Below, in pieces: positions 6,414 through 14,003 of a stretch of DNA of 56,707 nt (position 1 is the first letter of the stretch; each line of letters starts with the position of its first letter). The stretch spans positions 1-56,707 of the forward strand of contig NZ_JACJSV010000025.1 of the NCBI RefSeq assembly GCF_014698335.1. The letters run 5' to 3'. Position numbers and translations under genes: made by a program. A model generated the notes under the pieces. It saw nothing but the letters and a program-made list of their open reading frames with translations. It was not told the DNA's origin and did not search any database. Source of the stretch: Microcystis viridis FACHB-1342 (GTDB lineage: Bacteria; Cyanobacteriota; Cyanobacteriia; Cyanobacteriales; Microcystaceae).

Positions 6414-6933
6414 AGGAAGTTTTTCACTGAGGGTTTGATGATCACTATAGCCTGTTCTCAGGCAGACAGATCATTTTTCTCGGTAAAAATCCTTGTGGGA
6501 AAAGAGCGAAGTGCTAGGGTGGCCTAAAATTGCGATCGAGAATCGGCTAAAGTTCAGATTGGCGAGCTAAAGTGTTAGGATGGTTTTCAATCAAACTCAA
6601 CTTTTTTTATTAATAAATAGCTGAACAATATTCTGTAAACTTATATACAGAAACCTAAAGAAATATGTTAATTTGCCGTCTTTGGGGCAGTAAATTCTGA
6701 TAGACGATCTAGAGTAGTAAGTATAAGTACCGCACCTAATTTTACCTAGTCAAGCTGGCTATCTAACTCATCTATATCATTTCCGAACAGAGTTAGAACT
6801 TTCTTTGTCTCGGTTGGGTCTTGCGGGAATTTTACCTTAAGGAAAATCTCGATAATTTTGAGTCATGATTCACTAGAATCCTCAAATATTCCATAAACTG
6901 GCGAGTTTTAAGAAACCTAGGAGGTTCATCGCT
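6414..6933. other. 520-base gap without a gene
   Basis: No coding frame was seen. The stretch is A/T-rich and contains two similar short boxes, GTGCTAGGGTGG near 6511 and GTGTTAGGATGG near 6570. It should hold the promoter of the 6934-11760 gene run, but I cannot place it. A strong AGGAGG lies just before 6934. Confidence 0.5.
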
Positions 6934-8043
6934 ATGAAAAGCCGTCTTATTGTTTGTTGTGATGGAACTTGGCAAGATTTAGGACAAGCTTATCCTACCA
7001 ATGTCGTCAAAATGGTGCAAGCTATCACGCCACTTGATGATAGTAAGGGCAACCCCATCCGTCAAATCATCTACTATGACGAAGGCATTGGGACAAAACA
7101 ATCTAATGCCGAGATGACTGATACTTTAATTAAAATTACTGGAGGTGCTTTAGGCATTGGCATGGATCATAAGATTGAGGATGCCTATCGTTTTCTGTGC
7201 TTAAACTATCAACCTGAAGATGAAATTTATCTCTTTGGGTTTAGTCGGGGAGCTTACACTGTACGCTGTTTAGCTGGGTTAATTTATAATTGCGGTTTGT
7301 TGTATCGAGAATTTATCCGACAAATTCCCAAAGCCTACGAAATTTACCGAGACAAACAAGACCAAAATAACGCACCTAACGGTAAAAATGCCATTGATTT
7401 CCGTAATCAGTATGGACGACGAGTTCCCATTAAAGCCTTATGCTGTTGGGATACGGTTGCTTCTTTAGGTATCCCTGATATCGTTCATTCTCTGCACTTG
7501 GATGAAAAGTTCAACGAACGTTATCGCTTTTATGATTCGACCATCAATCCTACAATTGAAAAGGCGTTTCATGCAGTTGCCATTGATGAAATTCGTAAAG
7601 TCTTTGATGTAACGCTAATGCGTCCCCATTCTACCCAGATCAGACAACAAAAAGAACAAGTGGTTCAAGTTTGGTTTCCGGGGGGTCATGGTTGTGTTGG
7701 TGGAGGTTCTCAGGAAGAATCTGGCCTATCCGATGGAGCTTTATTGTGGATGATGGAACAAGTCGAAACCTTGGGTTTGGTCTTAGATAAAAGTTATATT
7801 CAACATGAAGTTCATCCCAATTGTAGTGCGCGTTTTGATAATACGTCAAAATGGCCATTTAATGTAGCGGGAACAGCACCTCGTCAGTTTGAAGGGGATG
7901 TTAGCAATTTGCATGAAAGTGTTAAAAATCGCTGGACAGACCTGAATCTTAATCCCCCTTATAAACCCGCTATTCCCGAAATTCAAATGATGCTTGAGCA
8001 AGAGCTTGGTGCTTTGAGAAAGAAAGAAATAGTCTCTGTTTAG
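6934..8043 (+). CDS. DUF2235 (Tle1-like) alpha/beta-hydrolase, probable phospholipase
   Basis: A 369-residue protein of the DUF2235 family. The N-terminus RLIVCCDGTWQDLG is the family signature, and the nucleophile elbow is LFGFSRGAYTVRC (GxSxG, Ser near 105). CCWDTVASLGIP supplies the conserved Asp, and VWFPGGHGCVGGG supplies the catalytic His. In most relatives that loop reads HxDVGGG, so Cys replaces an Asp there. Type VI lipase effectors Tle1 belong to this family and hydrolyse membrane phospholipids (family knowledge). There is no signal peptide. It is the first gene of a co-directional run with cell-wall hydrolases, 62 bases before the chitosanase-like gene, with a perfect AGGAGG ribosome site. 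Confidence 0.85.
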   Translation: MKSRLIVCCDGTWQDLGQAYPTNVVKMVQAITPLDDSKGNPIRQIIYYDEGIGTKQSNAEMTDTLIKITGGALGIGMDHKIEDAYRFLCLNYQPEDEIYLFGFSRGAYTVRCLAGLIYNCGLLYREFIRQIPKAYEIYRDKQDQNNAPNGKNAIDFRNQYGRRVPIKALCCWDTVASLGIPDIVHSLHLDEKFNERYRFYDSTINPTIEKAFHAVAIDEIRKVFDVTLMRPHSTQIRQQKEQVVQVWFPGGHGCVGGGSQEESGLSDGALLWMMEQVETLGLVLDKSYIQHEVHPNCSARFDNTSKWPFNVAGTAPRQFEGDVSNLHESVKNRWTDLNLNPPYKPAIPEIQMMLEQELGALRKKEIVSV

Positions 8044-8105
8044 CACTTCGCTGCCTCAAAAATGTCGCCTTCACTTTACTTTTTACTTAACTGAGGATCA
8101 AATTA

Positions 8106-9065
8106 ATGGTTATCAAAATTAATCAACCCAGTAATAATGCCACACTTGCCATAACAGATAACGTTAATTTTAAAGGCACTGCAAGTCATGAAATTGTTCG
8201 GATTGAGTTATGGGCAGAAAATAAGTGGCACTTCGGTAATAGCTCAGTTTCTAATGGCAATTGGTCAGTCTCTTATCGTTTTACTGACAACGGTAAACGT
8301 CAAATTGAAGCGAGAGGATTTGATCAAGATAATCATTCTGTTGCCAGTGAAAAAATTACTTTAGAAATTGAAGCTTCTTCCATAAGCTGTGAACCAAGAA
8401 CGAAACTCTTTGAAATTGGCGGTCATTCTGTTTGGCAAATTGCAGGACAAACCGCTTTTTTCTATCAATCAAAAATGAGTATTGATGCCGATGGTGCGCC
8501 TAATGCTTATCACCCCGACAATATTGGCTTAGATGATCTAAAAAATGCCGGTTATCCAAATACGTCTTGGTGGAAGAATATTCTTGTCCCTGACCCTCAA
8601 AATCCTAATCGAGCTTATGAGCAACCCTCTGGACCCTATCAAGGTTATTTTGTCTCTATGACAGCTTTACAGGATGGAACTAAGGCAAAAACTGATCCCA
8701 GTCGCTATGTTGATTCTACTCGGATACCCTATATTGTTCTCCCCGGTGGTGGCAGTGCCGGGGCAAAACTGGGGGATTTTGCCGTGGTTTTTAATGGTAA
8801 AAACGGCAAGATTGTCAATGGGATTTATGCAGATGTTGGTCCATCCAACAAAATTGGCGAGGGTTCAATTGCCCTTGCTGAAGCGTTGGGCATTCCTTCC
8901 AGTCCCCGAACAGGTGGTGTGAGTAGCGGTATTATGTATGTCGTTTTTCCTGGCTCGGGCAACGGTAAGCCGCGATCGCTTTCTGAGATTAACACCGAAG
9001 CCGAAAAACATTTCAACAATTGGGGGGGAATGGCCAGGTTAAACGCTTGTTTTAGCCCATCTTAA
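8106..9065 (+). CDS. GH75 chitosanase-like glycoside hydrolase with N-terminal Ig-like domain
   Basis: A 319-residue protein. Residues 1-95 form a short beta-sandwich of the bacterial Ig/fibronectin kind (INQPSNNATLAITDNVNFKG, later RQIEARGFDQDNHSVAS). Residues 100-319 match the GH75 chitosanase layout: SKMSIDADGAPNAYHPDN carries the Asp cluster, and YADVGPSNKIGEGSIALAEA carries the Asp/Glu pair. GH75 enzymes, first known from fungi, cut beta-1,4-linked glucosamine polymers (family knowledge). A de-N-acetylated peptidoglycan or fungal wall is a plausible target here (inference). No signal peptide, like the genes on both sides. The spacing of 62 and 46 bases suggests one transcript. Confidence 0.8.
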   Translation: MVIKINQPSNNATLAITDNVNFKGTASHEIVRIELWAENKWHFGNSSVSNGNWSVSYRFTDNGKRQIEARGFDQDNHSVASEKITLEIEASSISCEPRTKLFEIGGHSVWQIAGQTAFFYQSKMSIDADGAPNAYHPDNIGLDDLKNAGYPNTSWWKNILVPDPQNPNRAYEQPSGPYQGYFVSMTALQDGTKAKTDPSRYVDSTRIPYIVLPGGGSAGAKLGDFAVVFNGKNGKIVNGIYADVGPSNKIGEGSIALAEALGIPSSPRTGGVSSGIMYVVFPGSGNGKPRSLSEINTEAEKHFNNWGGMARLNACFSPS

Positions 9066-9111
9066 CCTAGAAAACTGCCAATTTACCTTTACTTTATCGA
9101 GGAATATCACT

Positions 9112-9834
9112 ATGACTACCGCACAACAAGTTCTTCAAATTGCAGCCCGGGAAATTGGCTACAAAGAAAACCCAAAAAATTCTAACCATAATAAATTTGG
9201 TATTTGGTATGGTATGGATTATCAGCCTTGGTGTGCCATGTTTGTTTCCTATTGCTTTTACAATGCGGGCTTACCTTTACCCATTACTACACCTAAAGGG
9301 TTTGCTTATTGTCCTTATGGAGTGAAATGGTTTAGAAATAAAGGATGGTGGCATACAGATCCTCAAGTGGGTGATGTTGTTTTTTATGATTGGGGAGGTG
9401 ATGGTGTATCCGATCATGTCGGTATAGTTGAAAAAGTTAATTCTGACGGTTCAATTGTTGCTATTGAAGGGAATACCTCTGATGATTTTGGTGACTCTAA
9501 CGGTGGCGAAGTTTGCCGTAAAACTCAGAAAAAAGGGATTTTAGGTTATGGTCGTCCTCCTTATCATGGTCTAGTCCCCCCTGATCAAGAGGAACATCCA
9601 GTTTGGGAACGTTTCATTGCTCTAACTAGCCCTTATATGCGAGGAGATGATGTCTTGCAGTGGCAACGAAAAATGATTCACCGAGGTTGGAATCTTGAGG
9701 CTGATGGTGTCTTCAAGGAGCGAGATGAGAATGTCCTAAAACAATTCCAAAAACAAAAAGGTCTAACAGTTGATGGCATTATTGGACCGATCTCGTGGGA
9801 TGCGGCATGGGAAGCACCCATCACAACCGACTAA
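9112..9834 (+). CDS. CHAP peptidoglycan hydrolase with PG_binding_1 domain
   Basis: A 240-residue protein. Residues 1-155 are a CHAP (NlpC/P60-like) domain with the catalytic pair intact: Cys41 in PWCAMFVSYCF and His102 in SDHVGIVEKVN, followed by the polar residue in EGN (119-121). CHAP enzymes cleave peptidoglycan as amidases or endopeptidases. Residues 166-236 form a PG_binding_1 domain (MRGDDVLQWQRKMI, then LEADGVFKERDENVLKQFQ and LTVDGIIGPISWDAAW). The missing signal peptide means export by a dedicated system, lysis, or phage-like delivery. The gene is directly followed by a catalytically dead paralogue at 9950. Confidence 0.9.
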   Translation: MTTAQQVLQIAAREIGYKENPKNSNHNKFGIWYGMDYQPWCAMFVSYCFYNAGLPLPITTPKGFAYCPYGVKWFRNKGWWHTDPQVGDVVFYDWGGDGVSDHVGIVEKVNSDGSIVAIEGNTSDDFGDSNGGEVCRKTQKKGILGYGRPPYHGLVPPDQEEHPVWERFIALTSPYMRGDDVLQWQRKMIHRGWNLEADGVFKERDENVLKQFQKQKGLTVDGIIGPISWDAAWEAPITTD

Positions 9835-9850
9835 ATGATTACTAGATGTG

Positions 9851-9894
9851 GATGAGGTATGGGATTAAACAGAAAAATTAAGCCATACCTCATC
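9851..9894. terminator. Strong stem-loop between the two CHAP genes
   Basis: GATGAGGTATGG (9851-9862) and CCATACCTCATC (9883-9894) form a perfect 12-bp stem with a 20-base loop. Only a short T run follows (TTTAAAA). It may attenuate transcription or stabilise the 3' end of the active CHAP message. Confidence 0.5.
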
Positions 9895-9900
9895 TTTAAA

Positions 9901-9928
9901 AGCTTGAATTAACCTCAAAATTCAAGCT
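9901..9928. repeat. Second stem-loop between the two CHAP genes
   Basis: AGCTTGAATT (9901-9910) and AATTCAAGCT (9919-9928) form a perfect 10-bp stem with an 8-base loop, ending 21 bases before the start of the dead paralogue. Together with the hairpin before it, it may set the ratio of the two products. Confidence 0.5.
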
Positions 9929-9949
9929 ATTTAGGAAGAAACTAAAATT

Positions 9950-10432
9950 ATGACGACTCCACAAGACGTTTTACAAATTGCCATTGATCAAATAGGTACA
10001 AAAGAAACCCCTTCAGGTTCTAACCAAACTAAATACAATGATTGGTATGGTATGAATCATGTTCCTTGGGCAGCAATGTTTGTTTCTTATTGCTTTTATC
10101 ATGCGGGTTTACCGTTAGAAATTACCACAGATAAAGGGTTTGCCTATCATCCCCACGCAAAAAAATGGTTTGAAGAACATGGATGGTGGCATACAACTCC
10201 TCAAATTGGGGATATCGTCTTCTTTGACTGGGGAAATGATCGGTCGCCTGATAGCGTTGGCATTGTCGAAAAAGTGAATTCTGATGGTTCAATTGTTGCG
10301 ATTCGAGGGAATGTTGATAATCAGGTTAAACGAGTAAACCATCAGGGAAGCACGATTATGGGTTATGGTCGTCCACCTTATCAAACTAGCAAACTAGATT
10401 CTGAACTTGATCAGGTATTGCTCAACTCCTAA
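9950..10432 (+). CDS. Catalytically dead CHAP paralogue (pseudoenzyme)
   Basis: A 160-residue protein that aligns without gaps to the CHAP domain at 9112 over the first ~120 residues (for example WYGM, FVSYCFY, AGLPL, TTxKGFAY and VGIVEKVNSDGSIVAI are shared). Cys41 is Ala (PWAAMF), His102 is Ser (PDSVGIVE), and Glu119 is Arg (AIRGN). The wall-binding domain is missing, and the protein stops soon after MGYGRPPY. Reading frame and ribosome site (AGGAAG) are intact, so this is not a decaying gene. Likely roles are binding the same wall ligand as a decoy, binding the active enzyme, or acting as its immunity protein (inference). It overlaps the open frame of the next gene. Confidence 0.85.
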   Translation: MTTPQDVLQIAIDQIGTKETPSGSNQTKYNDWYGMNHVPWAAMFVSYCFYHAGLPLEITTDKGFAYHPHAKKWFEEHGWWHTTPQIGDIVFFDWGNDRSPDSVGIVEKVNSDGSIVAIRGNVDNQVKRVNHQGSTIMGYGRPPYQTSKLDSELDQVLLNS

Positions 10433-10445
10433 CAACATTAGTAAC

Positions 10446-10892
10446 ATGATTGAAACTCTAACAAATCAAGTTAGCATCCCTGTCTGTTTATCTTTGAGCG
10501 CCTGTGTCATAAGCGTCCTATCCAGTGAACTTAACGCTCAAAATCCCCCTAGCTTTGTGATGCCAAGTGGTAACATTTATTGCGCTCTAATTGGGAAAGA
10601 TAATAATATGCTACGGTGCGAGATCCAAAGTATGTTAAATCCTCTACCCCCTCAACCTTATCCTAATTATTGTCAATTTGATTGGGGAGCTGGTTTTCTG
10701 CTCCCTCAACAAGGTAAACCAGAAGTTCTTTGTATAAGTGATACCATTGCCGGTACTAATAACATCCTTTCTTATGGAAAAACTTGGCAACATTCAGGCT
10801 TTAAATGTATCTCACAAAGAACGGGATTAATGTGTGGTAATCCCGGTGGACACGGTTTCTTTCTGAGTCGTCAGCAGTGGCAGGCTTTTTGA
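10446..10892 (+). CDS. Exported small protein, DUF6636-like
   Basis: From ATG 10446 the product has 148 residues. A hydrophobic segment with small residues (VCLSLSACVISVLSSELNAQ) looks like a signal peptide with cleavage after LNA. The mature part contains six or more Cys and reads PSFVMPSGNIYCAL, LRCEIQS, WGAGFLL and SGFKCISQRTGLMCGNPGGHGFFLS. The pattern 'SGNIYC ... LRCEI ... GLxCxNxxGHGFFLSR' recalls the DUF6636 family of exported proteins of unknown function (from memory). An upstream ATG at 10407 is in frame but lies within the previous gene. Export to the periplasm next to wall hydrolases would suit a protective or wall-associated role (inference). Confidence 0.65.
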   Translation: MIETLTNQVSIPVCLSLSACVISVLSSELNAQNPPSFVMPSGNIYCALIGKDNNMLRCEIQSMLNPLPPQPYPNYCQFDWGAGFLLPQQGKPEVLCISDTIAGTNNILSYGKTWQHSGFKCISQRTGLMCGNPGGHGFFLSRQQWQAF

Positions 10893-10929
10893 AATAAAAA
10901 ATTCCCAATCTCCTAGGAGACAATAAATT

Positions 10930-11760
10930 ATGAAAACCTACACCGTTGATCACCTTTTTCAACTATTATTAGGACTCAGCTTGACTCTTTTTCTCAGCTT
11001 GATTTTCCCAATCGCCCAAATTAAGGCTGAGAATCTATCAACACTCGCAGTAGTTAAAGTCCCCTGTCCAAAATTAGAAGTAACTCGCCTTTTAGTGGCA
11101 GATAATGAGCCAAAAGATGTCCTCTTTCTCTATCCTGTCAGTTCTAGGCAATTAGACTCGACTCGTCAAAGTCAGTTAATCTTAGAGAAAAAAATAAAAG
11201 TAAGTGATCTGGAAGCGATCACTAAATTAGCTGATCAATCATTAGCAGATAAAGATACCTGTGAACAAGCCAATGCTTTTAATACTGATAATACTGAAGG
11301 TGCAGTGACGATTCCTGATTCTTTATCTCTGGAAAAAAAATTTAAGATTTGGCTTGGGTTACGTTCCCTGCTTGCAATGCAAAACACAAATCTCCCTATA
11401 ACCATAGACTCAAAACTAATCTGGAACGATACGGGAATTAATCTTGTCGCTGGACAAGAATATCATTTTCAAGCAACAGGTCAATGGACAGACTGGACAA
11501 TTACCTCTAATGCTGATGGTTATGAAAGTCCTAATTTCTTGCTGAAACTATGTGAAGGACTACGACGAATGCCTAATTCACCTTGGTTTTCACTGATTGG
11601 TTCAATTGATAAAGCTCAAGATAGTTTCTTCCTCATCGGCACAAATAAACAGTTTATAGCCCCAAAAACAGGACGGCTTTACTGCTTTGCTAACGATGTG
11701 ATCATCGCCTATGGCAATAATCGAGATAGCATCCAACTCACTGTAACTTCCTTAACTTGA
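10930..11760 (+). CDS. Exported protein with C-terminal PA-IL/LecA-like lectin domain
   Basis: A 276-residue protein. Residues 1-34 are a signal peptide (LFQLLLGLSLTLFLSLIF, cleavage near IKA-EN). The middle part is helical with two Cys (KVPCPKLEV, KDTCEQAN). Residues 155-276 show the LecA-like beta-sandwich pattern: WNDTGINLVAGQEYHFQATG, then SPWFSLIGSI, FLIGTNKQFIAPKTGRLYC and FANDVIIAYGNNRDSIQLTV. In PA-IL lectins the loops ending in the final strands bind calcium and galactose (family knowledge); binding here is untested. AGGAGA precedes the ATG. It is the last intact gene of the run and may anchor to surface glycans. Confidence 0.7.
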   Translation: MKTYTVDHLFQLLLGLSLTLFLSLIFPIAQIKAENLSTLAVVKVPCPKLEVTRLLVADNEPKDVLFLYPVSSRQLDSTRQSQLILEKKIKVSDLEAITKLADQSLADKDTCEQANAFNTDNTEGAVTIPDSLSLEKKFKIWLGLRSLLAMQNTNLPITIDSKLIWNDTGINLVAGQEYHFQATGQWTDWTITSNADGYESPNFLLKLCEGLRRMPNSPWFSLIGSIDKAQDSFFLIGTNKQFIAPKTGRLYCFANDVIIAYGNNRDSIQLTVTSLT

Positions 11761-11840
11761 CAAAGGGAAAATATCCTATTTGTTAACTGTCTGCTGTTGT
11801 TAAAGTAACCTGTCCAGAATCAGGCAAAAAAGGAGCAAAA

Positions 11841-11942
11841 ATGATGACTACCCAAAAACTGAAAGCTCTAGTCAATACTGTTATCAAACAATCGCAGTGG
11901 CAATTGTGGCACCTGTATTGCCTGTCCTGTGGCTCAAGTGAC
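11841..11942 (+). pseudogene. Frameshifted signal-peptide gene remnant
   Basis: A strong AAGGAG precedes ATGATG at 11841. The frame starts MMTTQKLKALVNTVIKQ, but the hydrophobic stretch expected next (IAVAIVAPVLPVLWLK, then TGA at 11940) is readable only in another frame. The uncorrected frame continues to 12071 but turns into low-quality sequence overlapping a gene on the other strand. I read it as the broken front of a seventh gene of the preceding run. A sequencing error could give the same picture. Confidence 0.35.
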
Positions 11943-12307: not shown

Positions 12308-12495
12308 GGCTCTTCGGTTTGTGTTATGCAATGGATGGGGGTTATAAGGAATGAAACCCTTATAGAGACAGACATTACCGCGATTTTTGTCAATTGTTTG
12401 CGATCTAGAGCGAACTAATCAATTAAATCCCTTGCCAGATAAGGATTTAGTCGATTTATGCCCCCATATCGAACCATACCAAGTCCCGAAGAGCC
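12308..12495. mobile_element. ISL3-type MITE with 8-bp target duplication
   Basis: The 188-bp element starts GGCTCTTCGG and ends CCGAAGAGCC. The inverted ends continue imperfectly (GTTATGCAATGGATGGGGG against the complement of CCCCCATATCGAACCATACC). AGTTTTCG flanks it on both sides (12300-12307 and 12496-12503), an exact 8-bp duplication as made by ISL3-family transposases, whose ends also begin GGCTCTTC (family knowledge). There is no coding frame inside, so it depends on a transposase elsewhere. Confidence 0.85.
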
Positions 12496-12885: not shown

Positions 12886-13776
12886 ATGCAGCAAATTCTA
12901 GGATTAGAGACACAAGCAAAAATCTGGCATTGGCGGGGATTCAAAATCACCTATCAAAGTGCGGGGGAGACAGGACCCGCGATCGTGCTTGTGCATGGAT
13001 TTGGGGCATCTTGGGGACATTGGCGGAAAAATATCCCTGTTTTAGGCGAAAAATGTCGCTGTTTTGCCCTAGATTTAATTGGTTTTGGCGGTTCCGACAA
13101 ACCCGAACCGAAAAACGAGATCGATTACACTTTCGAGACTTGGGGGGCGCAAATTGCCGATTTTTGTCGGGAAGTGGTGGGGGGTGCTGCTTTTTTGGCG
13201 GGGAATTCCATCGGTTGCATCGCCATTATGCAGGCTGCCGTCGATCATCCCGATTTTGTCCTTGGGGTGGCGGCGATTAATTGTTCCCTCAGACTACTTC
13301 ACGAAAGAAAACGGGGGGAATTACCCTGGTATCGTCGTTTAGGAGCGGATTTTGCCCAAATAATTCTCAAAAATAAAGCAATTGGGGCTTTTTTCTTCCA
13401 ACAGATCGCTAAACCCCAGACAGTGCGTAAAATTCTCCTGCAAGCTTATCGGCGATCAGAAGCGGTAACGGAGGAATTAGTGGAAATAATCTTAAAACCC
13501 GCCAGAGATCCAGGAGCGATCGAGGTTTTCCTCGCTTTTACCGGTTATTCTGGTGGCCCACTCCCGGAAGATCTACTGCCGATTCTCCCCTGTCCAGCCA
13601 TTCTGCTTTGGGGTAGCGAGGATCCCTGGGAACCCTTGCCCTTGGGCCAAGAATTAGCACGATTCCCGACAGTAAAAAAGTTTATCCCCTTAGCTGGCTT
13701 AGGCCACTGTCCCCAGGACGAGGCCCCAGAAATAGTTAATCCGATTTTATTAGACTTCCTGCAAGCTCCTATCTAG
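12886..13776 (+). CDS. Alpha/beta-fold hydrolase
   Basis: A 296-residue protein with a complete catalytic triad: the oxyanion motif LVHGFGASWGHW, nucleophile Ser in LAGNSIGCIAIM (GxSxG), acid Asp in LWGSEDPWEP and His in LAGLGHCPQDE. It belongs to the family that includes haloalkane-dehalogenase-like and pheophytinase/MenH-like enzymes; cyanobacteria have several. The substrate cannot be told. There is no signal peptide or membrane segment. The stop codon TAG at 13774-13776 is completed by the first base of a MITE. Confidence 0.85.
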   Translation: MQQILGLETQAKIWHWRGFKITYQSAGETGPAIVLVHGFGASWGHWRKNIPVLGEKCRCFALDLIGFGGSDKPEPKNEIDYTFETWGAQIADFCREVVGGAAFLAGNSIGCIAIMQAAVDHPDFVLGVAAINCSLRLLHERKRGELPWYRRLGADFAQIILKNKAIGAFFFQQIAKPQTVRKILLQAYRRSEAVTEELVEIILKPARDPGAIEVFLAFTGYSGGPLPEDLLPILPCPAILLWGSEDPWEPLPLGQELARFPTVKKFIPLAGLGHCPQDEAPEIVNPILLDFLQAPI

Positions 13777-13990
13777 GGTTTGCGGCAAAAAGTTTGTTGG
13801 TGGGGGTAGGGTGTGGGGTGTGGGGTGTGGGGTGTAGGGTTTTACCCATTTTCAGGCGGTCAATTACCTAATTTTCAGGGAAAAAGTCCCTGAATTTTCC
13901 CCCCAATCACTCCAATCGCTGGTACTTTTTGATTTCAAAAAAGTCTAAAAATATTATCCAACAAGGTTTTTAGATTTATTCAGCAATCCC
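13776..13990. mobile_element. MITE, subfamily 1, copy A (GGGTTTGC ends)
   Basis: The 215-bp element starts GGGTTTGCGGCAAAAAG and ends TTTATTCAGCAATCCC. TATCTA flanks it on both sides (13770-13775 and 13991-13996). It shares its core (GGTCAATTACCTAATTTTCAGGG, CAACAAGGTTTTTAGATTTA) with 28305-28510 and 54393-54605. GGGGTGT heptamers lie inside. No coding capacity. Confidence 0.85.
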
Positions 13991-14003
13991 TATCTAAGTC
14001 CTT

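Follow-up and report, generated by a model that had tools for sequence, protein, structure and literature searches.

Analysis of the contig NZ_JACJSV010000025.1 of Microcystis viridis FACHB-1342 (56,707 nucleotides, hereafter the window; one contig of a 4.7 Mb genome in 138 contigs, G000) indicated a run of six co-directional open reading frames (ORFs) on the + strand, at 6934-8043, 8106-9065, 9112-9834, 9950-10432, 10407-10892 and 10930-11760. They encode a Tle1-like lipase, a GH75 chitosanase, two CHAP proteins, a DUF6636 protein and a further exported protein. This run may well represent one allele of a store of antagonistic effectors that varies between strains and would act against the cell envelope, a reading that we hold with roughly even confidence. 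The initial annotation had described one co-directional run of envelope-attacking enzymes, and both the ORF list and the Pfam families agree with it. The same annotation took the run for a fixed six-gene cassette, which did not hold, as gene content differs between strains and the window carries one allele of several.

A strain-variable island

The genome search set held one genome per species, the phylum-wide counts come from subsamples (386, 291 and 319 genomes), and the loci of Microcystis sp. LSC13-02 and G003 were counted once. The island was found in 11 of 12 Microcystis genomes. Its left side, which precedes a DUF4127 gene in complete, truncated or remnant form, has seven different gene contents (families of the alleles were scanned on representatives). 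The twelfth genome, G002, has none of the island at the site, no Tle1 orthologue and no Big_7-type module. According to blastn flank identity, the left edge of the variable island lies at 6808..6833, since G009 matches the window up to 6808 and G002 up to 6833, both without this Tle1 gene; in G011 the match already ends at 6776. The left flank is thus common with Tle1-less genomes up to 6776-6833 and the content rightward varies, different enzyme sets directly adjoining this flank in 10 Microcystis genomes.

The allele of the window (Tle1-GH75-CHAP1-CHAP2-DUF6636-exported protein) is shared with G003, where the first five genes are present and the sixth is intact. G004 carries all genes but GH75 (Tle1-CHAP1-CHAP2-DUF6636-exported), and G001 has Tle1-CHAP1. 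In G006, G007 and G008, Tle1 is followed by a lysozyme of 504 aa and a 155-aa protein, and the set of G005 is Tle1-lysozyme-223 aa-302 aa-127 aa, its DUF4127 being located on another contig after an M8 protease gene. Two further contents are 227 aa-351 aa-glucosaminidase/amidase (759 or 769 aa)-M8 protease-exported 360 aa in G009 and G011, and 221 aa-Tlde1-like-268 aa-Amidase_2-LysM/SleB-type-lipoprotein-like-105 aa in G010. In this last genome the region is spread over three contigs. One carries the set and starts with a 150-base left-flank match (88.7%); of Tle1 only the two ends are seen, its start with the cysK flank on a second contig and its end on a third. The other alleles carry genes of the lysozyme, amidase, glucosaminidase, SleB, metalloprotease and, weakly, Tlde1 types, the Tlde1 match of the leaderless 260-aa protein of G010 (L130:1115-1897) being sub-threshold (25.8 bits against a cut-off of 30.1). 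Genes of the peptidoglycan-hydrolase type occur in all 11 island genomes, and GH75 in only two.

To the right of DUF4127, a Big_7-type fusion protein is present in 8 of the 11 island genomes (G001, G004, G005, G007-G011). In four of these (G001, G007, G009 and G011) a DUF2272 protein with a leader comes after it, truncated in G009. Next comes a gene called glpX-like by eye in G001, G004, G007, G009 and G011. ORFs of the fetched loci were called mechanically, and neighbours without a family call were named by eye (for example glpX, hemA and those next to DUF6636). Between G007 and G009 the right-hand fusion protein is 98.8% identical despite entirely different left-hand sets, which points to recombination between strains.

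Gene order was also sought in relatives, a test that had been set beforehand as one that could refute the proposal. The five-gene order is kept in G003 and in G016, a genome of another genus, so the order is conserved beyond the window. G016 shows the succession Tle1, catalytic part of GH75 (without Big_7), CHAP1, CHAP2, DUF6636, the identities being 55-74%.

Enzymes of the window allele

The first gene (6934..8043, +; 369 aa, no leader) encodes a protein with a Tle1-like catalytic domain (PF09994, Pfam E 5.9e-85), which fits the catalytic family of a known effector class of the type VI secretion system (T6SS). The motifs GFSRG, WDTV and GGH, which would contribute the Ser, Asp and His typical of this family, are retained; the DUF2235/Tle1-like lipase of the initial annotation is thereby upheld. 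Seven of the 11 other Microcystis genomes have the gene at 95-97% identity, and G016 has it at 67%.

The second gene (8106..9065, +; 319 aa, no leader) has a Big_7 Ig-like module at residues 2-69 (Pfam E 1.8e-5) followed by a GH75 catalytic domain at about residues 101-314 (Pfam E 8.7e-11), in which IDADG and ADVG....IGEG are retained. The domain matches the viral chitosanase V-Csn (PDB 7tvl) at E 6.4e-43. The active-site acids of V-Csn are given as D34, D36, D148 and E157 in PMC9485262, and all four are identical in the alignment with the window protein (chain numbering offset of three), in line with the chitosanase-like enzyme proposed initially. Among the named genomes, the only relative of this gene found is that of Microcystis sp. 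LSC13-02 (97% identical). GH75 occurs in 2 of the 386 cyanobacteria sampled, with G003 and G016, which also have GH75, standing outside that sample.

The third gene (CHAP1; 9112..9834, +; 240 aa, no leader) combines a CHAP domain (PF05257, E 1.9e-16) having both catalytic Cys and His with PG_binding_1 (PF01471). It is of the endolysin type, matching a PHROG endolysin family at E 1.5e-37, which agrees with the CHAP hydrolase with a wall-binding domain that had been suggested. Its relatives are common (76 of 386 cyanobacteria sampled). Measured against G000, omega is 0.12-0.36 for Tle1, GH75 and CHAP1; for CHAP1 it is 0.14-0.16 between genera and 0.27-0.45 within Microcystis, and for the flanking cysK-like gene at most 0.05.

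Tle1-like domains are also found outside the island. Paralogues (43-49%) lie elsewhere in G009, G010 and G011, and in G010 (L040:4281-9950) a 1889-aa open frame combines a Tle1-like domain near its end with matches to LamG-type, tectonin and jacalin-type lectin domains. The genome of the window itself holds a LamG-Tle1 fusion of 675 aa (L043). In three genomes of the same family, two gene families come after a shorter Tle1-like lipase; their L035 members match P450 and lipoxygenase. The lipase and these families directly adjoin in L035:7592-12555 and L038:6982-11952, and other genes lie between them in L036:6729-13174; the arrangement is possibly a lipase-P450-lipoxygenase oxylipin operon.

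Module swapping

The Big_7-type module precedes three unrelated C-terminal domains, GH75 and two others, and one example pair is 81% identical over residues 1-96 with no match beyond. The module is present in 10 of the 12 Microcystis genomes (own included) and in 14 of the 59 genomes searched, two of these 14 by weak matches only. Neither of the two other catalytic domains behind it gave a useful PDB match, and one matches a PHROG of unknown function; their motifs are at most suggestive of papain-like and goose-lysozyme-like enzymes. Similarly, the N-terminal module of DUF4127 precedes four C-terminal domains; apart from DUF4127 itself, it stands before an M8 metalloprotease (56-59%) and, more weakly, a C39-like domain (32-38%). 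In G020 the DUF4127 module comes before the same domain that in Microcystis follows the Big_7-type module. Thus, a common N-terminal module with an exchangeable C-terminal domain, a feature of polymorphic toxin systems, is found here in the sequences, with the C-terminal domains as putative toxins.

Leaderless enzymes and leader-bearing neighbours

Leaders were called by a hydropathy scan of the first 45 residues and not by a trained predictor. By this measure all 17 enzyme-side proteins scanned, several of them without an assigned enzyme family, have no strongly hydrophobic N-terminal stretch. Such a stretch is found in seven of the nine other island proteins scanned (DUF6636 and the 276-, 352-, 223-, 249-, 302- and 389-aa proteins); that of the 302-aa protein is placed deeper and resembles a membrane segment. 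Of the remaining two, the 281-aa protein has no such stretch and the 155-aa protein gives an ambiguous profile. In the stretches read, a clear leader- or membrane-bearing partner is present, directly or by homology, in 9 of the 11 island genomes. The initial annotation had found no signal peptide in the three enzymes and one in each of the last two proteins; crude hydropathy gives the same picture, and the division recurs in the other alleles. Outside the genus, G018 (L091:6585-8543) has a leader-bearing DUF2272 gene followed by a GH75 gene whose N-terminus is leader-like, the DUF2272 protein being 53% identical to that of the Microcystis island.

The fourth gene (CHAP2; 9950..10432, +; 160 aa) has neither wall-binding domain nor leader, and its CHAP match (Pfam E 1.1e-10) lacks the catalytic residues. 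It reads PWAA and DSVG, with Cys replaced by Ala, His by Ser and the Glu of the IEGN motif, which presumably takes part in CHAP catalysis, by Arg. The Cys and Glu replacements are found in all four copies (G000, G003, G004, G016) and that of His in three, and omega is 0.29-0.34 between genera (against G016) and 0.32-0.53 within Microcystis. With replacements shared between genera and these omega values, the copy is old and under purifying selection, more relaxed than in CHAP1. The dead CHAP copy noticed at first is therefore a retained gene, and CHAP2 is a candidate protector of the enzyme maker.

The DUF6636 protein (10446..10892, +; 148 aa, hydrophobic N-terminus; PF20341 E 1.1e-16 on the ORF from 10407) is probably translated from the ATG at 10446, 13 bases past the stop of CHAP2, rather than from the TTG at 10407. 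The distance to the CHAP2 stop is 9 bases in G016, and no ribosome-binding site is evident by eye in either genome, which suggests translational coupling of the two genes. DUF6636 occurs in 19 of the 319 cyanobacteria sampled. A single-sequence structure prediction reached a mean pLDDT (predicted local distance difference test) of 43, too low for use.

The sixth gene and the right side of the run

In the protein alignment, the sixth gene (10930..11760, +; 276 aa) begins like a 352-aa protein of other strains, of which it has the leader half in shortened form, and continues as a 127-aa domain. G005 encodes the 127-aa protein on its own, as a gene without a leader, and G006-G008 have it joined to the initial residues of the 223-aa protein. 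At the DNA level, G003 and G004 match piecewise as far as 11366, and G006 matches 11376-11893 at 98.5%. From these alignments the gene is a deletion chimera, a fusion scar. The protein had been taken for an exported lectin-like partner; it has no Pfam match and nothing below E 0.5 in a PDB sequence search, and a fusion scar is hardly an evolved partner. The 127-aa domain was found in 5 of 291 genomes sampled. A leaderless relative (46%) stands directly before a Tle1-like gene in G049 (L037:5351-6872), so this linkage extends beyond Microcystis.

The DUF4127 gene is present, complete or partial, in the ten other island genomes, and the window has only a remnant of its 5' end (11826..11893, +). 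These 68 bases are 92.6-95.6% identical in G003, G004, G005, G009 and G011 and lie inside longer matches of 96.9-98.8% in G001, G006, G007 and G008. Further right, in the eroded side, a short repeated element (12308..12495, no strand assigned) has imperfect inverted ends with 21-nt arms that are 76% complementary, and five full or partial copies of it lie at loci of four other Microcystis genomes. The chimeric sixth gene, the DUF4127 remnant and this element indicate that the window is a partly eroded allele. The stretches 12308-12495 and 13770-13992 are both repeated in loci of several other Microcystis genomes and resemble miniature inverted-repeat transposable elements. The next gene rightward (12886-13776) is an alpha/beta hydrolase by Pfam, its substrate not assigned. 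There was no wall hydrolase or lipase among 10 other window genes (Pfam).

Delivery and phage links

The search for delivery genes beyond the window covered contractile sheaths only. Linked contractile-injection genes had been proposed as a check, and no sheath was found in the own genome: two models of phage-type sheaths (PF04984, PF17482) gave no match there, with three control genomes positive in each, and VipB was absent from all 59 genomes, own included, with the E. coli control positive, so that no T6SS sheath was found either. Contractile delivery from the same genome is thus rejected for sheath-based systems. A sheath model was positive in 9 of the 59 genomes, including G001, G004 and G011, and not in G000, G003, G005-G008 or G016; sheath presence thus does not follow the island. 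The matches are two neighbouring phage-type ones in G004 (C1:2888315-2889759) and single ones in G001 and G011, and they may represent contractile systems or prophages in some Microcystis genomes. The run itself has no VgrG or PAAR match (Pfam) and no holin or spanin among the PHROG matches of its six proteins, and no phage family was found among 13 other window genes (Pfam), which agrees with the earlier statement that VgrG, PAAR, holin and phage structural genes are missing.

With exact-peptide seeding, Tle1, DUF6636, the 127-aa domain and GH75 had no relatives on viral contigs, and CHAP1 had 18, at 31-50%. The 143 phage records with CHAP relatives, of which two are from Microcystis phages, stay below 60% identity throughout, and plasmid records gave only distant Tle1 relatives, likewise all below 60%. 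A whole-phage origin of the run was rejected on the viral-contig results with the seeding used, phage records giving only distant CHAP1 relatives. A known anti-phage system was set aside, as no PADLOC model matched any of ten island proteins.

Interpretation and alternatives

The leaderless enzymes (lipase, amidase or endopeptidase, muramidase, chitosanase and proteases) would target the envelope of other cells. Strains would exchange them by recombination at one chromosomal site, several being swapped as catalytic domains behind a Big_7-type or DUF4127 N-terminal module. The enzymes would be harmless in the cytoplasm of the producer and toxic once outside, on rivals or on kin without the matching genes; release could take place via cell lysis, vesicles or an as yet unspecified export system, and the leader-bearing proteins encoded between the enzymes would be candidate protectors. 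Support comes from families also known among antibacterial effectors (Tle1-like, endolysin-type lysozyme, CHAP, amidases, glucosaminidase and the sub-threshold Tlde1). Such a store of antagonistic effectors would account for the swapping as well as for the absence of leaders, the types of enzyme and the selection observed, and we regard its chances as evenly balanced.

Several observations weigh against it. The allele of the window is eroded, no delivery machine is linked to the island, and sheath genes are present in only two of the nine genomes with this Tle1 gene. Many polymorphic systems are defined by large stalked toxins, and the island proteins are small. The within-genus omega values, up to 0.53 for CHAP2, are built on few changes. 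G006 and G008 carry only an ambiguous leader-bearing partner in the stretch read, and the GH75 gene of G018 has, as described, a leader-like N-terminus. The Pfam score of Big_7 is below the cut-off in three of the non-GH75 fusions scanned (14.9-18.2 against 24.1 bits), and the module of GH75 is linked to the other Big_7-type modules by BLAST matches of 33-42%. Protection is affected as well. G001 has CHAP1 without CHAP2 or DUF6636, which is evidence against these two as obligatory protectors, and in all ten DUF6636 loci read in non-Microcystis cyanobacteria no relative of an island enzyme lies within about 3 kb (in one of these genomes, G148, the DUF6636 gene and a CHAP relative of 49% identity are about 13 kb apart). 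These lone loci and the CHAP1 of G001 weigh against DUF6636 as a dedicated antidote, and its role as an exported protective partner, proposed initially, is weakened accordingly. Rather doubtful, in our view, is the more specific possibility that the island is a new polymorphic antagonism system of colonial cyanobacteria, whose two modules would sort the enzymes to a non-contractile release and whose dead CHAP would be the protector.

The run could instead be a cassette for self-lysis or altruistic death, in which a cytoplasmic phospholipase opens the inner membrane and endolysin-type enzymes dissolve the wall, freeing the cell contents or ending a phage infection. CHAP1, the 504-aa lysozyme, the glucosaminidase/amidase, Amidase_2 and the SleB-type protein do match phage endolysin or amidase families and have no hydrophobic start, and the lipase could stand in for a holin. 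However, the PADLOC and holin searches described above were negative, and such a cassette would need neither allele diversity nor shared modules. G009 and G011 are without this lipase and G010 shows only its two ends at contig ends, yet all three keep wall hydrolases, although it should be noted that they hold the Tle1-like paralogues elsewhere. We consider self-lysis improbable.

Equally improbable is that the site is a landing place for phage-derived lysin genes of little or no present function, which are briefly kept and then lost. The phage-type lysin families with their distant phage relatives, the chimeric sixth gene, the DUF4127 remnant and the repeat element at the right edge would all be expected from it, as would the G+C of the run (0.38-0.42 against 0.48-0.49 in two flanking genes). 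In contrast, the omega values of Tle1, GH75 and CHAP1 and the five-gene order kept between genera weigh against it, the active-site motifs are intact, ribosome-binding sites precede most genes (by eye), and the seeds used found no Tle1 relative in the viral collection.

Somewhat less probable still, the enzymes could be digestive or anti-parasite agents, freed by a lysed colony cell against fungal parasites (chitosan), slime bacteria or grazers. This would be consistent with the characterised GH75 relative V-Csn being a chitosanase and with two scanned Tle1 paralogues being fused to lectin-type domains. However, peptidoglycan-hydrolase-type genes are in every island genome and GH75 in only two, and GH75 is rare in the phylum sample (2 of 386). 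Wall hydrolases are common housekeeping enzymes, but ordinary wall turnover or nutrient scavenging by the producer is hardly to be expected from enzymes without leaders whose content varies between strains and of which G002 lacks the island set, the Tle1 orthologue and the Big_7-type module.

If the island is a store of antagonistic effectors, it would matter for bloom ecology. Microcystis blooms consist of several strains together, and the island would offer a directly testable basis for the way in which these exclude each other. It would also mean that effector-type repertoires persist even where the search for a contractile injection machine was negative, and the module swapping would provide a handle for locating the delivery route.

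Comparison with known systems

We found no publication describing this island in searches of open-licence PubMed Central (PMC) papers on cyanobacteria, Microcystis and DUF4127. With phage lysis cassettes the island shares the endolysin-type enzymes, but differs in having no holin or spanin among the six proteins, a lipase and a chitosanase in addition, and no phage gene in the scanned window genes. With the anti-envelope effectors of the T6SS it shares the Tle1-like lipase, the amidase and muramidase classes and the sub-threshold Tlde1, whereas no T6SS was found in its genome (VipB in none of the 59) and the run has no VgrG or PAAR match.

A contractile system of Anabaena has reportedly been described (PMC8894136). 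The island differs from extracellular contractile injection systems (eCIS) and thylakoid-anchored contractile injection in that no sheath was found in its genome, nor in seven of the nine genomes with this Tle1 gene. A cyanobacterial eCIS-associated toxin has been reported (PMC8213781). V-Csn, a soil viral GH75 chitosanase (PMC9485262), shares the catalytic domain and its four active-site acids with the window protein, in which the domain stands behind an Ig-like module in a bacterial island.

The closest comparison may be with polymorphic toxin systems. These have a dedicated immunity gene beside the toxin; in the island leader-bearing neighbours are common, CHAP1 occurs without CHAP2 or DUF6636 in G001 and DUF6636 occurs elsewhere without island-type enzymes. 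The island differs in its short proteins and the dominance of wall hydrolases, and neither a recognised trafficking domain nor linked secretion genes were seen in it. Zhang et al. 2012 (PMC3482391) list DUF2235 as the toxin domain Tox-AB hydrolase1 and include cyanobacteria, so the kind of system is already known, and what we did not find described in the open-licence papers searched is the island and its use of the two modules. Alike in both are the shared N-terminal modules with exchangeable catalytic domains and the replacement of alleles between strains.

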